From NCBI RefSeq assembly GCF_016185115.1, contig NZ_JACPOF010000015.1:434001-498000 (forward strand): a stretch of 64,000 nt of DNA, written 5' to 3'. The translations under genes and the position numbers were made by a program. The notes beneath the pieces were generated by a model. The model did not search any database and was not told the DNA's origin. It was given only the letters and a program-made list of their open reading frames with translations. Positions 59,684 to 64,000 of this stretch are shown here, piece by piece (positions within the stretch are counted from its first letter, which is position 1; each line of letters begins with the position of its first letter). Source of the stretch: Polaromonas sp. GTDB lineage: Bacteria; Pseudomonadota; Gammaproteobacteria; Burkholderiales; Burkholderiaceae_C.

Positions 59684-61006
59684 TCAAGCGCCTCGACGTT
59701 TCTTGCCAACCGCGGGCGAGGAATCAAGCGCCAGGTAAAGCCGGCTAAGCGCGTCCCGGATCTCTTCTTGGTACTGATAGTCATCATAGCTCTGATGCTG
59801 TACACCAGAAAGTCCATGCGATTGGAGATGGCCCCGAGTTTCCTTACTAACCTTTAGGCTGGCGAGTAAAGTCTCAACCCCTGACCTGATTCTTTTGGTA
59901 GAGAAATCTTTGATACCAGCTGCTGCTTCACATGCCCAGTCACTTAGCGTCGTCCCTGCAATGTGAGTTATTCCACCATCAGTAGACAAAGCATACTTCC
60001 CGGTCGAATTGCATTGATCCAGTGCCTTTCTCGCTTGGGGGATGAGGTAAACCGGATGGATTCGAGCGGGACGTCCAGATCTGCCTTTTTTGTCTATTAA
60101 CGTGAATCGGTCTGATTTGATGTTAGCTGTTAGAAGGCGCCCTAGTTGAGCCAATCGTTGAGCGCCAGTAAGTAGGTGAAGTCTTAGAACGGCACCTTTG
60201 AAGCCTGGCATGTCCCTAATAATGGACCAATAAAGTCGAAGTTCATCTAATTCGAGAGGATTTTTGTCCGGCAGATTGTTTGAATTGTCTGGTGAAGTTT
60301 CTGCGGCTGGATTGAACGTAATCTTGAACTTTTCGAAAAGCTTCGGGACAGATGGTTTTGTTTTTACTGCCTTTGCTGTTTGATAGGCGGCGCGCAAATA
60401 AGTCCGCACCTTATTAGCGGTCCTTCCCTTTTTTTGCTCGATAACGCGTCGCATTATTTCGACCACGTGATCGACCGTCATTTCTGAAGCGGGCAGTTCA
60501 GATATGGATGGCCACGGTTCATAAACATGAACCTTGAAGATCGAACGAGCCTCGCTGTGAGATATCTTTTCGTTTTGCTCCAGGTAGTCGCAGTAGGCTT
60601 CCAGGAGGTGCTTAACTGTCGCAGTTTCTTGTTCCGTTGCAGCGAGCTGCTGAACACGTGCGATCTTGGCTTTTTCTGCGAGAAGGGCCGGGCGCCCCCC
60701 TTGGGCCTTGTGATTCAAGTGCTCTTGTGCAAGCTTCTGGGCTTGAAATTCAGCTGCAGCAATTGAGAAGCCTTTGGCCGAAGGAGACAGCGATTTAGGT
60801 GGTGCTGACGAGTCATAACTGCCGATGGGGACCCGCTCACTTTTGAGTCCGAAGCTGTATCGCCAATAAAAGGTTACCGTGCCATTGCTGTGCTTACGCA
60901 CTTGAAGGGCGCCGGTAGGAATGATCTTTCTCAGTGTTGAGAAACGACCAACTGGCGACTGATTAATGAGTTGACTTGGAGTGAGCTTATTGAGGGACGC
61001 TTGCAT
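59684..61006 (-). CDS. Tyrosine recombinase/integrase (P4-like)
   Basis: LRLHLLTGAQRLAQLGRL (Arg I), FSTKRIRSGVETLLASLKVSKETRGHLQSHGLSGVQHQSYDDY (Arg II, His, Tyr); start inferred at 61006 with agg upstream. Confidence 0.82.
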   Translation of the reverse strand: MQASLNKLTPSQLINQSPVGRFSTLRKIIPTGALQVRKHSNGTVTFYWRYSFGLKSERVPIGSYDSSAPPKSLSPSAKGFSIAAAEFQAQKLAQEHLNHKAQGGRPALLAEKAKIARVQQLAATEQETATVKHLLEAYCDYLEQNEKISHSEARSIFKVHVYEPWPSISELPASEMTVDHVVEIMRRVIEQKKGRTANKVRTYLRAAYQTAKAVKTKPSVPKLFEKFKITFNPAAETSPDNSNNLPDKNPLELDELRLYWSIIRDMPGFKGAVLRLHLLTGAQRLAQLGRLLTANIKSDRFTLIDKKGRSGRPARIHPVYLIPQARKALDQCNSTGKYALSTDGGITHIAGTTLSDWACEAAAGIKDFSTKRIRSGVETLLASLKVSKETRGHLQSHGLSGVQHQSYDDYQYQEEIRDALSRLYLALDSSPAVGKKRRGA

Positions 61007-61020
61007 AATCCTGAGGTGTT

Positions 61021-61097
61021 CCGTTGCCAGACCGTTGCCAGACCGTTGCCAGACCGTTGCCAGACCGTTGCCAGACCGTTGCCAGACCGTTGCCAGA
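61021..61097. repeat. Perfect 11-bp tandem repeat, 7 copies of ccgttgccaga
   Basis: Counted directly: seven exact contiguous units from 61021 to 61097, just upstream of the integrase start. Confidence 0.97.
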
Positions 61098-61210
61098 ATT
61101 TTAGCCGATGTTCGTATATCGCATTGGACGTCGTTGAACAATAAAATGTTATATATCAATGACTTGCGTTAATTTAACTTGTCCAGTGGAATCCAATAAA
61201 ATCCAATTTT

Positions 61211-61260
61211 TAGGACTCATAATCCTTTGGTCGTAGGTTCAAGTCCTACACGCCCTACCA
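61211..61260 (+). tRNA. 3' half of a CAU-anticodon tRNA (Met- or Ile2-like), probable attachment site
   Basis: taggactcataatcctttggtcgtaggttcaagtcctacacgccctacca: anticodon loop CTCATAA, T-arm GTAGG/TTCAAGT/CCTAC, 3' CCA; no 5' half upstream. Confidence 0.82.
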
Positions 61261-61277
61261 TTTATCTTTTCTCAATG

Positions 61278-61317
61278 CGCCTCAGCATCCGTTCGGGTCT
61301 GGGGCGTTGCTGTTTTT
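61278..61317 (+). terminator. Intrinsic terminator downstream of the tRNA 3' end
   Basis: CGCCTCAG ... CTGGGGCG stem (one U-G pair) followed by ttgctgttttt. Confidence 0.55.
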
Positions 61318-61344: not shown

Positions 61345-61776
61345 ATGAACATCGCCACAGCCCTCAAATCCGAAATCTCCCGCGTCGCCCGCAAGGAAGT
61401 TCGCGCTGAAGTCTCCGCCCTCAAATCGGCATCATCCCGGTACCGCTCCGACATCGCCGATTTGAAACGCCGCATCGCGCAACTGGAACGCCTTGTCGGT
61501 CAACTCAGCAAAGGCACTCGCAAGAGAGTTGCCGAAGCGTCTGATGCCCAACCCGCAACCGTCACTCGCTACAGCGCAAAAAATCTGGCCGCGTTGCGCA
61601 AGAAGCTGGGCTTGTCCGCAGCTGACTTTGGCAAGCTGTTGGGTGTATCCGGCGCCTCGGTCTATCTATGGGAGGACGGCAAGACCCGGCCGCGTGAGAA
61701 GAATATGCCCGCAATTTCCAGGCTGCGGGGGATGGGCAAGAAGGCTGCGCTTCAGCTACTTGCGACGCTCAAGTAG
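61345..61776 (+). CDS. Helix-turn-helix (XRE-like) protein
   Basis: NLAALRKKLGLSAADFGKLLGVSGASVYLWEDGKTRPRE. Confidence 0.85.
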   Translation: MNIATALKSEISRVARKEVRAEVSALKSASSRYRSDIADLKRRIAQLERLVGQLSKGTRKRVAEASDAQPATVTRYSAKNLAALRKKLGLSAADFGKLLGVSGASVYLWEDGKTRPREKNMPAISRLRGMGKKAALQLLATLK

Positions 61777-61815: not shown

Positions 61816-62853
61816 TCAGGCTATCCGCCCGAACCAGATGACAGACAACAAAGCCCCGCTAGCCGCGATACACGCTGCCACCAGCGCAAGCAGGCCAGAG
61901 AGTTCGGTTTCGCGCCTGTGCACCTGCAGCTGCGAGCCGAGATTTTCATAGACGCTGCGTAATTTTTCTGCCGTGCCGGCGTAGTGATATTCGCCGCCTG
62001 TCATGCGCGCCACTTCGCGCAGTGTCGGTTCATCAAGCTGCAGGTAGATGGGCATGCCTTCGGCCGTGGCGCCATCTCCACCGACAGTACCCAGGCCCAC
62101 GACGTAGATCTTTACCCCGCGGTCGGCGGCCATCTTTGCTGCGGCAAGAGTGTCTACACCGGTGGTGCGGCGTCCATCGCTCAGCAGAATGATGGCGGCA
62201 GAGTTGTACGAGCCCGGCGCTACGGGCGTGATCTCTTTCGGTGGCGGCTTGTCCTTGTCATCCAGGCTGCGTCCGCGCAGCTGCCTGCCGAAGGTCATGC
62301 CGCTCAGGTCGATGCCGTGGTCGGGGAAGAGTTCTGCCAGGCACAGCACGATGGCGTTCCCTACCGCTGTGCCCATCTGCATCTGGAAGGCGTCGATAGC
62401 CGCGACCAGCGACGTGCGGTCAAGTGTTGCGGCCTGGGCCACCTGGGTGCTGCCGGCGAAGGTGACGAGCCCGACCTCAATGCCCTTGGGCAACTCCTTC
62501 AGGAAAGACTTGGCCGCGTCCTGGGCTGCCACCAGCCGGGTTGGTTTGACGTCAGTGACCCGCATGCTGAGCGACACGTCCATGGCCAGCATGATGGATG
62601 ACCTTGCCCATGGCAGCGGCACCTTTGCAACGGGTCGCGCTGCGGCCAGCAGCAGCACTGCGCTGGCAAGTAACAGCAGCACGGGCGGCACGTGCCTGCG
62701 CCAATTGCGTCCGGCTGTGGCGGCACGCACCATAGCCACGCTGCTGTAGCGCAGTGACGTTCTGCCGCGCCGGCGCAGCAGCCACAGGTAGGCCAATGGC
62801 AGCAGGGGCAGCGCAAGCAGCAGCCAGAGGTACTGCGGCCATAGAAAAAACAT
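61816..62853 (-). CDS. VWA-domain membrane protein (BatA/BatB-like)
   Basis: Hydrophobic N-terminus; SIMLAMDVSLSMRVTDVKPTRL MIDAS region; AIILLSDGRRTTGVD. Confidence 0.88.
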   Translation of the reverse strand: MFFLWPQYLWLLLALPLLPLAYLWLLRRRGRTSLRYSSVAMVRAATAGRNWRRHVPPVLLLLASAVLLLAAARPVAKVPLPWARSSIMLAMDVSLSMRVTDVKPTRLVAAQDAAKSFLKELPKGIEVGLVTFAGSTQVAQAATLDRTSLVAAIDAFQMQMGTAVGNAIVLCLAELFPDHGIDLSGMTFGRQLRGRSLDDKDKPPPKEITPVAPGSYNSAAIILLSDGRRTTGVDTLAAAKMAADRGVKIYVVGLGTVGGDGATAEGMPIYLQLDEPTLREVARMTGGEYHYAGTAEKLRSVYENLGSQLQVHRRETELSGLLALVAACIAASGALLSVIWFGRIA

Positions 62854-63022
62854 CGGGCAATCCTGTACGGTTATCGTGAGGAAGGACTGGCTTCGTCGAA
62901 TTTTGCGGCGTGGGGGCACGACATTCCCCGCAACACAGCAATATCGTGCCGCTTATGCCAGCGCTTGGCAAGTACTGGCCCCGCAGGTTTGTTCCGCAAG
63001 CCGGACCTGGGGTGCGATGTGT

Positions 63023-64000
63023 TTAAAGAATGATGTTGTTATTCGGTCTGAGCAGGCTCGGAACATCAGTTTCGCCAAGCATTTGTTTCAGCTCAATCTC
63101 AAGCAATCGGCAAACCTGCGCCATGGGCACATCGTTGGCGCCCCCTTCAAACGGGTTCTCGGTACTCTCCCCAACCTGGTACAGCGAGATATACATCCAG
63201 GAAATGAGCAAACTGAACGGTATGGCAAACCAGCTCATGTTGCCGGCGAGAAAACCGCCAACATGCGCATTGAGCTTGTCAAACTCGACCATGACGCCAA
63301 ACGGCAGCAGCACTGCAAAGCTCCACACAAAAATCGTGTTGATGATGGCGTACTGCCGTGGATAGGGGAAATTCTTTATACGCTCGGCCCTGCTTTGCTG
63401 GTCGATGAAGTCCTTGAGGGTTTTCTGCATTTCGGTGTGATGAAGAACCACCAAATTCTGTGCTGCGTAGAGCGCGCGTATGGCCTCGCTTTGTGCACCC
63501 ATGAGCCATGTCGCCTTGCCCCGCACGTGGGCGATCAATGCAAGCTCTTCTTCCGGCAGGTATTTCAGCAACTCATGGTCCAGCGATGTTTCCGTTTCCG
63601 GTACGGTGAAAAACGTCTTGCCATATTCGGCGTTCGACTGGCTTGATACGCTTTCCCAGATTCTCCGGGTACGAAGCTGGTACCGGAGTGCAGTCAGCCA
63701 GGCGAGATGGCGGTACACCAGCGCCCTTGATTTCTCGCGGTCAACCGGAAAGTCCCTGCTGATCAGGCCCCAGTAACGGCTGCCGGTGGCGATGGCTGTC
63801 CAGACCTGCTGTGCTTCCAGGGTGCGGCCATAAGTCTGCGCGTTCTTGAAGCCAACGATGAACGATGTGGCGGTTCCCAGCACGGCCACCACCACCCAGG
63901 GCAAGGCTACCCACTTCAGATCCAGTAATTGGTAGAGCACCACCGGCACGGTCGTGACAAGCGTAAGCACGTAGATTTTGCGCCGCGTCCAATGAAGAAA
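63023..64000 (-). CDS. Bestrophin-family anion channel-like protein, 5' truncated by window edge
   Basis: FIVGFKNAQTYGRTLEAQQVWTAIATGSRYWG; frame stays open to base 64000 (FLHWTRRKIY). Confidence 0.85.
   Translation of the reverse strand, partial: FLHWTRRKIYVLTLVTTVPVVLYQLLDLKWVALPWVVVAVLGTATSFIVGFKNAQTYGRTLEAQQVWTAIATGSRYWGLISRDFPVDREKSRALVYRHLAWLTALRYQLRTRRIWESVSSQSNAEYGKTFFTVPETETSLDHELLKYLPEEELALIAHVRGKATWLMGAQSEAIRALYAAQNLVVLHHTEMQKTLKDFIDQQSRAERIKNFPYPRQYAIINTIFVWSFAVLLPFGVMVEFDKLNAHVGGFLAGNMSWFAIPFSLLISWMYISLYQVGESTENPFEGGANDVPMAQVCRLLEIELKQMLGETDVPSLLRPNNNIIL

Follow-up and report, generated by a model that had tools for sequence, protein, structure and literature searches.

The 49-bp sequence at positions 61,212-61,260 (+) of the window, the 64-kb stretch of DNA analyzed here (C13:434,001-498,000 of a 4.8-Mb assembly in 31 contigs, 96% complete), very probably marks attR of a genomic island, 149.4 kb in length, in a CAU tRNA gene. 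The island occupies C13:345,895-495,211, between a reconstituted tRNA gene (C13:345,818-345,894) and this displaced 3' half. A preliminary description of the window had recognized a tRNA 3' half from 61,211, with a tyrosine recombinase to its left and at least 60 kb of imported cargo beyond. The half is real, the recombinase is present where claimed, and the imported DNA amounts to 149.4 kb. The description was also right in placing here the integrase-bearing end of a tRNA-inserted island. Against this conclusion, neither an excised circle nor a same-species strain lacking the island was seen, and the T-stem difference described below could in principle post-date insertion. Position 61,261 is an inner junction of a 183.6-kb composite, not an outer boundary, since the chromosome is conserved only from a tRNA-Arg gene 34.2 kb further right.

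Contents of the island and origin of the adjoining segment

The GC content of the island is 0.529, compared to 0.60 for the chromosome and 0.603 and 0.605 for the flanks. The right 61 kb of the island (window positions 1-61,211; GC ~0.52) carries catabolic and transport genes according to sampled Pfam matches, and between C13:379 kb and the integrase the sampled genes serve transport and catabolism. They encode TctC receptors, branched-chain ABC transporter parts, SDRs, Rieske dioxygenase subunits, an aminotransferase, PrpD, and a citrate-synthase-like protein. TctC-type substrate-binding proteins (~325-390 aa) are numerous, both at window positions 1-59,632 and from C13:379,921 onwards. Left of the window, at the left end of the island, lies a CBASS-type defense set (C13:349,697-353,468; L048:15,697-19,468) with a patatin effector, a DncV-like cyclase, and an E1-E2 protein, adjoined by a WYL regulator. 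Replication-type (YagK/YfjJ, G2P-like), DUF932, and YqaJ recombinase genes are also found near the left end (C13:369,668-370,732 and C13:364,615-366,761; L049) and possibly serve maintenance of the island. A VirB4-type ATPase (PF03135) is absent from the whole genome (assembly 96% complete), and by this test the island is not an ICE. It would not be self-transmissible, and its transfer would need help, if it is still mobile. No relaxase was found among the proteins scanned, which cover part of the island, and no phage structural genes were found among the sampled proteins.

The interval from tRNA-CAU to tRNA-Arg spans 183.6 kb here: the 149.4-kb island, then a further 34.2 kb beyond the half. 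This right segment begins with an XRE-type HTH gene (61,345-61,776 (+); HTH_3, E 1.9e-7), followed by genes for a BatA/VWA-domain protein (61,816-62,919 (-)) and a bestrophin-like protein (63,023-63,970 (-), cut by the window end; PF25539, E 1.2e-34); MgtC, CoA-transferase, TctC, AMP-ligase, BKACE, and thiolase genes are also present. Our preferred reading is that the segment is an older, right-truncated insertion. The main rival, that it is native chromosomal DNA relocated by rearrangement, is plausible but less likely. Consistent with relocation, the GC content of the segment (0.604) is that of the host, no integrase was recognized in it, no tRNA half was found before tRNA-Arg, and the closest copies of the BatA/VWA gene in nine relatives (71-78% identity) sit elsewhere, none of them beside a tRNA. 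With host-like GC content and no half before tRNA-Arg, its insertion by site-specific recombination is a conjecture. The segment does begin with a hairpin of the same kind as other insertions there, and the interval holds unrelated blocks in relatives: 34 kb in G066, ~50 kb in G058, 11 and 12.9 kb in G042, and 24 kb in G014. The 34-kb block in G066 is a bounded element with tRNA halves at both ends, for which G083 provides the empty site. The block in G058 (C8, L314-L316) is other DNA with similar transporter genes and no displaced half. Its first ~175 bp, tRNA included, are 93% identical to the left end of the island, with different DNA beyond, and no relative of the integrase was found in the G058 genome. 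In view of G058 and the other blocks, the stretch between tRNA-CAU and tRNA-Arg is a hotspot where insertions accrete and decay. As an older insertion at this hotspot, the 34.2-kb segment would probably have preceded the island and lost its distal att site; conserved chromosome resumes at tRNA-Arg(ACG).

The displaced half and the restored tRNA gene

The displaced half, AGGACTCATAATCCTTTGGTCGTAGGTTCAAGTCCTACACGCCCTACCA, spans the greater part of the anticodon arm together with the variable loop, the T arm, the acceptor 3' strand, and CCA, and includes the proposed attR core AGGACTCATAATCCTTTGGTC and what would be the host's old T-arm, GTAGG/CCTAC. ARAGORN found no tRNA in the 64-kb window, and the half scores 23.5 bits with the Rfam tRNA model, below the gathering score of 29, indicating that 61,212-61,260 is a tRNA fragment. 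A 31-nt part of it had chance matches in 0 of 100 shuffles. Other elements of the preliminary description hold as well: the D arm and acceptor 5' strand were not found upstream, a terminator-like hairpin (CGCCTCAG...CTGGGGCG; RNAfold -20.1 kcal/mol) is present 3' of the half at 61,276-61,308 (+), and the right side is GC-richer, with GC content changing from ~0.51 to 0.59 from left to right across the half. Several relatives have similar hairpins 3' of the intact tRNA or of the half.

A tRNA scan identified a complete CAU tRNA gene at C13:345,818-345,894, on the same contig and strand as the half and 149 kb to its left. A full tRNA had been expected at the unseen left end and was found there, but the further expectation that it would end in the displaced sequence was wrong. 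The full gene and the half have AGGACTCATAATCCTTTGGTC and ACGCCCTACCA in common, and both strands of the T-stem differ (CACAG/CTGTG in the full gene versus GTAGG/CCTAC in the half), each stem being fully paired. Genome searches with the half, either exact or allowing 3 mismatches, matched only the half itself. Such near-exact searches are misleading here because the partner tRNA differs at 8 positions. The identity of the half to the intact gene is only 84% over 49 nt because the T-stem was exchanged. No intact tRNA with this 3' half therefore exists in the genome, a result that the preliminary description had regarded as evidence against insertion, although its inference was right.

Joining nucleotides 1-28 of the host tRNA to the displaced half yields the intact tRNA of four relatives, letter for letter, suggesting that the 3' half now in the restored gene came with the island. 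The present, restored allele is identical to the tRNA at 13 further loci of relatives, and both alleles (the predicted attB and the present one) fold as full tRNAs. On the simplest reading, the incoming island supplied a 3' half and the strands were exchanged within the anticodon arm. The identity core is the 21-bp AGGACTCATAATCCTTTGGTC, beyond which the T-stems diverge, and the match begins at the first loop base in 10 of 17 CAU halves. This pattern points to a crossover within the anticodon arm, as in the anticodon-centered attachment subclass. Exchange of 3' halves was seen directly at two loci, the window and G014 (CACAG left, GAAGG right), and was looked for at G042 and G066 and not seen there. 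Compensatory mutation after insertion, rather than exchange, is an improbable source of the T-stem difference. T-stems do vary in the genus, taking ten forms among 67 intact copies, nine of them fully paired (nucleotides 8-49 are identical in 62 copies), but here all eight differences are paired and both alleles occur letter for letter in other relatives. The locus tRNA is likely tRNA-Ile2 rather than tRNA-Met, as judged by comparison with Escherichia coli, in which ileX scores higher than metU (60.0 versus 52.0); for the other elongator CAU tRNA of the host the order is reversed (51.0 versus 56.0). When this tRNA was searched against E. coli, the best matches listed were all tRNA-Lys.

The empty-site order in G055, G060, G083, G050, G032, and G048 is an hrcA-like gene (named from the protein end), tRNA-CAU, 25-30 bp, and tRNA-Arg(ACG). 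Past tRNA-Arg, these six genomes are ~78-80% identical to C13:529,475 onwards, and downstream order is conserved. Comparison with relatives that lack the insertion, suggested by the preliminary description, yielded at least 12 distinct empty sites with tRNA-Arg within 46 bp of tRNA-CAU; these relatives also lack the 34.2-kb right segment there. The right boundary first described is thus correct as the integrase end of the island and incorrect in taking the genes to its right as original background. The view of 61,261 as the outer boundary, with nothing but original chromosome to its right, draws on the GC content of the right segment (0.604), which equals that of the flanking chromosome. We consider it very unlikely, since tRNA-Arg and the downstream genes lie 25-46 bp past tRNA-CAU in relatives and 34.2 kb further right here.

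The integrase, its repeats, and its relatives

The tyrosine recombinase gene (59,684-61,006 (-); 440 aa; phrog_1 integrase, E 3.1e-18) is intact, lies directly left of the half, and reads leftwards into the island. Its match to Phage_int_M (PF22022; E 4.3e-5) is below the cut-off, and a PDB search by sequence returned no relatives; R284, K307, R374, H397, and Y407 are invariant in an integrase alignment of six homologues. The start is likely the ATG at 61,006, which is preceded by AGGA. A longer open reading frame from TTG at 61,159 was rejected, as it would read through the 11-bp repeat array. A promoter scan found nothing on the int strand.

Seven tandem copies of the 11-bp CCGTTGCCAGA (61,021-61,097 (+)) overlap the int upstream region and are proposed as right-arm integrase sites. 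In 224 kb, the 10-mer CGTTGCCAGA occurs only at the two island ends, with two copies at the left (C13:345,960 and 345,971) and seven at the right (495,022-495,088), all in the same orientation and spaced by 11 bp. When 19,904 random pairs of 400-bp segments from the island were compared, no pair shared a 10-mer occurring twice in each. These end repeats are probably arm-type binding sites of the integrase. The 11-kb island in G042 uses the same tRNA and the same plan with a different 11-mer, TGGTGTCTGTA. Another CAU tRNA 3' half is found in G042 on contig C2 (360,405 bp, matching plasmid NC_007949.1; L056:11,489), with a pair of 11-bp-spaced GTTGCC repeats ~75 bp on, and looks like an attP or a left-end remnant.

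In the mechanism that we propose, the integrase would recombine a circular form of the island into the single-copy CAU tRNA gene downstream of the hrcA-like gene, the strands being exchanged at the anticodon loop or immediately 3' of it. In the predicted attP, AGGACTCATAATCCTTTGGTCCACAG...CTGTGACGCCCTACCA is flanked on one side by the right end of the island, with the repeat array ... TTTTT, and on the other by its left end (TTTATATAGCG...). The island's 3' half (CACAG/CTGTG) would join the host 5' half, restoring a complete tRNA at C13:345,818, and the host's old 3' half (GTAGG/CCTAC) would be displaced 149 kb to 61,212-61,260. At either end, the 11-bp repeats would serve as arm-type sites, and, as they sit just upstream of int, the integrase may act as an autorepressor.

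We assembled integrase homologues from 80 GTDB loci, the majority in Burkholderiales, and most share the layout of half tRNA, 11-bp repeats, and int. A tRNA 3' half with the core CTNNTAATCC precedes int at 54 of the 80 loci (CAU, 16; Lys-UUU, 15; Asn-GUU, 13; Lys-CUU, 10, with isotypes assigned by anticodon), leaving 26 loci without an identified half of this kind. ARAGORN found an intact tRNA within 1.5 kb upstream of int at only four loci, three of which are the neighboring tRNA-Arg. Of 79 loci, counting that of the window, 60 have a perfect (9/9) repeat with a period of 11, compared to 0-5 loci for periods 8-10 and 12-14. Genomes do contain tRNA fragments, but the reading of the half as a chance or decayed fragment with no role in insertion is refuted, to the point of near certainty, by the adjoining integrase, the end-specific repeats, the partner tRNA in the right orientation, the empty sites, and the recurrence of the layout in most of the 80 homologues.

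The tRNA targets are clustered on the tree but repeatedly switched, with 14 changes of target label compared to a shuffled mean of 31. Two Hydrogenophaga loci (L232 and L272) have the CGTTGCCAGA repeats of the window and yet a tRNA-Lys half, so arm and core specificity look separable. In other genera, L242, L247, and L261 have a CAU half directly before tRNA-Arg, which is the same hotspot. We tentatively propose, with slightly less than even confidence, a coherent integrase family, mainly in Burkholderiales, that uses the anticodon-arm core CTNNTAATCC of tRNA-Lys, tRNA-Asn, and CAU tRNA, switching among them, and that sits at the displaced-fragment end behind 11-bp arm-site arrays whose sequence varies between members. 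Its members would rewrite the T-arm of an essential tRNA, present in single copy, as they insert, so that part of the T-stem diversity of this tRNA in the genus would be due to islands and not drift.

Relation to characterized islands

Integration of elements into tRNA 3' ends is well established. Anticodon-centered attP sites (Islander site A) were assigned to 2083 of 3919 islands (PMC4383910), and in the scheme of Williams cited by PMC2647930 such islands correspond to class IA. Islander is the nearest characterized precedent for anticodon-site islands. As its definition describes, an intact tRNA and a 3' fragment flank the present island on the same replicon and in the same orientation, a tyrosine integrase gene lies inside, and relatives have an unoccupied site. 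Crossover in the anticodon region and tandem insertions at one tRNA are further likenesses to site A/class IA islands. In contrast to these, the T-stem of the restored tRNA here differs from that of the displaced fragment, and int is at the fragment end, behind an 11-bp repeat array. PFGI-1 of Pseudomonas fluorescens Pf-5, a 115-kb island in tRNA-Lys (PMC2647930), is also large and has a class IA site over the anticodon and T loops, a repeat including 45 bp of the tRNA 3' end, and a tyrosine integrase near the tRNA sequence. The likeness drawn here is one of layout, and PFGI-1 differs in using tRNA-Lys rather than a CAU tRNA and in being described as a mobile island of the ICE class. The nearest characterized precedent for arm sites over the int promoter is the KplE1 prophage (PMC2951348), in which the arm-type sites of IntS lie between the tRNA sequence and the int start, overlapping the int promoter region. 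Unlike here, int of KplE1 is at attL, and its autoregulation was tested in KplE1 and is only suggested for our integrase by the position of the repeats.

Literature searches, in which coverage of subscription papers was thin and a negative is correspondingly weak, turned up neither this integrase family nor T-stem exchange. Anticodon-site tRNA islands are already known; what is new here is another such island, with a family-wide pattern. The guess of an unseen boundary is replaced by a mapped composite of 149.4 and 34.2 kb, for which att sites are predicted. An island end can escape near-exact repeat searches, since the restored tRNA can receive a different T-arm from the incoming element. The combination of a half tRNA, 11-bp repeats, and int offers a simple, testable rule for finding and bounding such islands in Burkholderiales.
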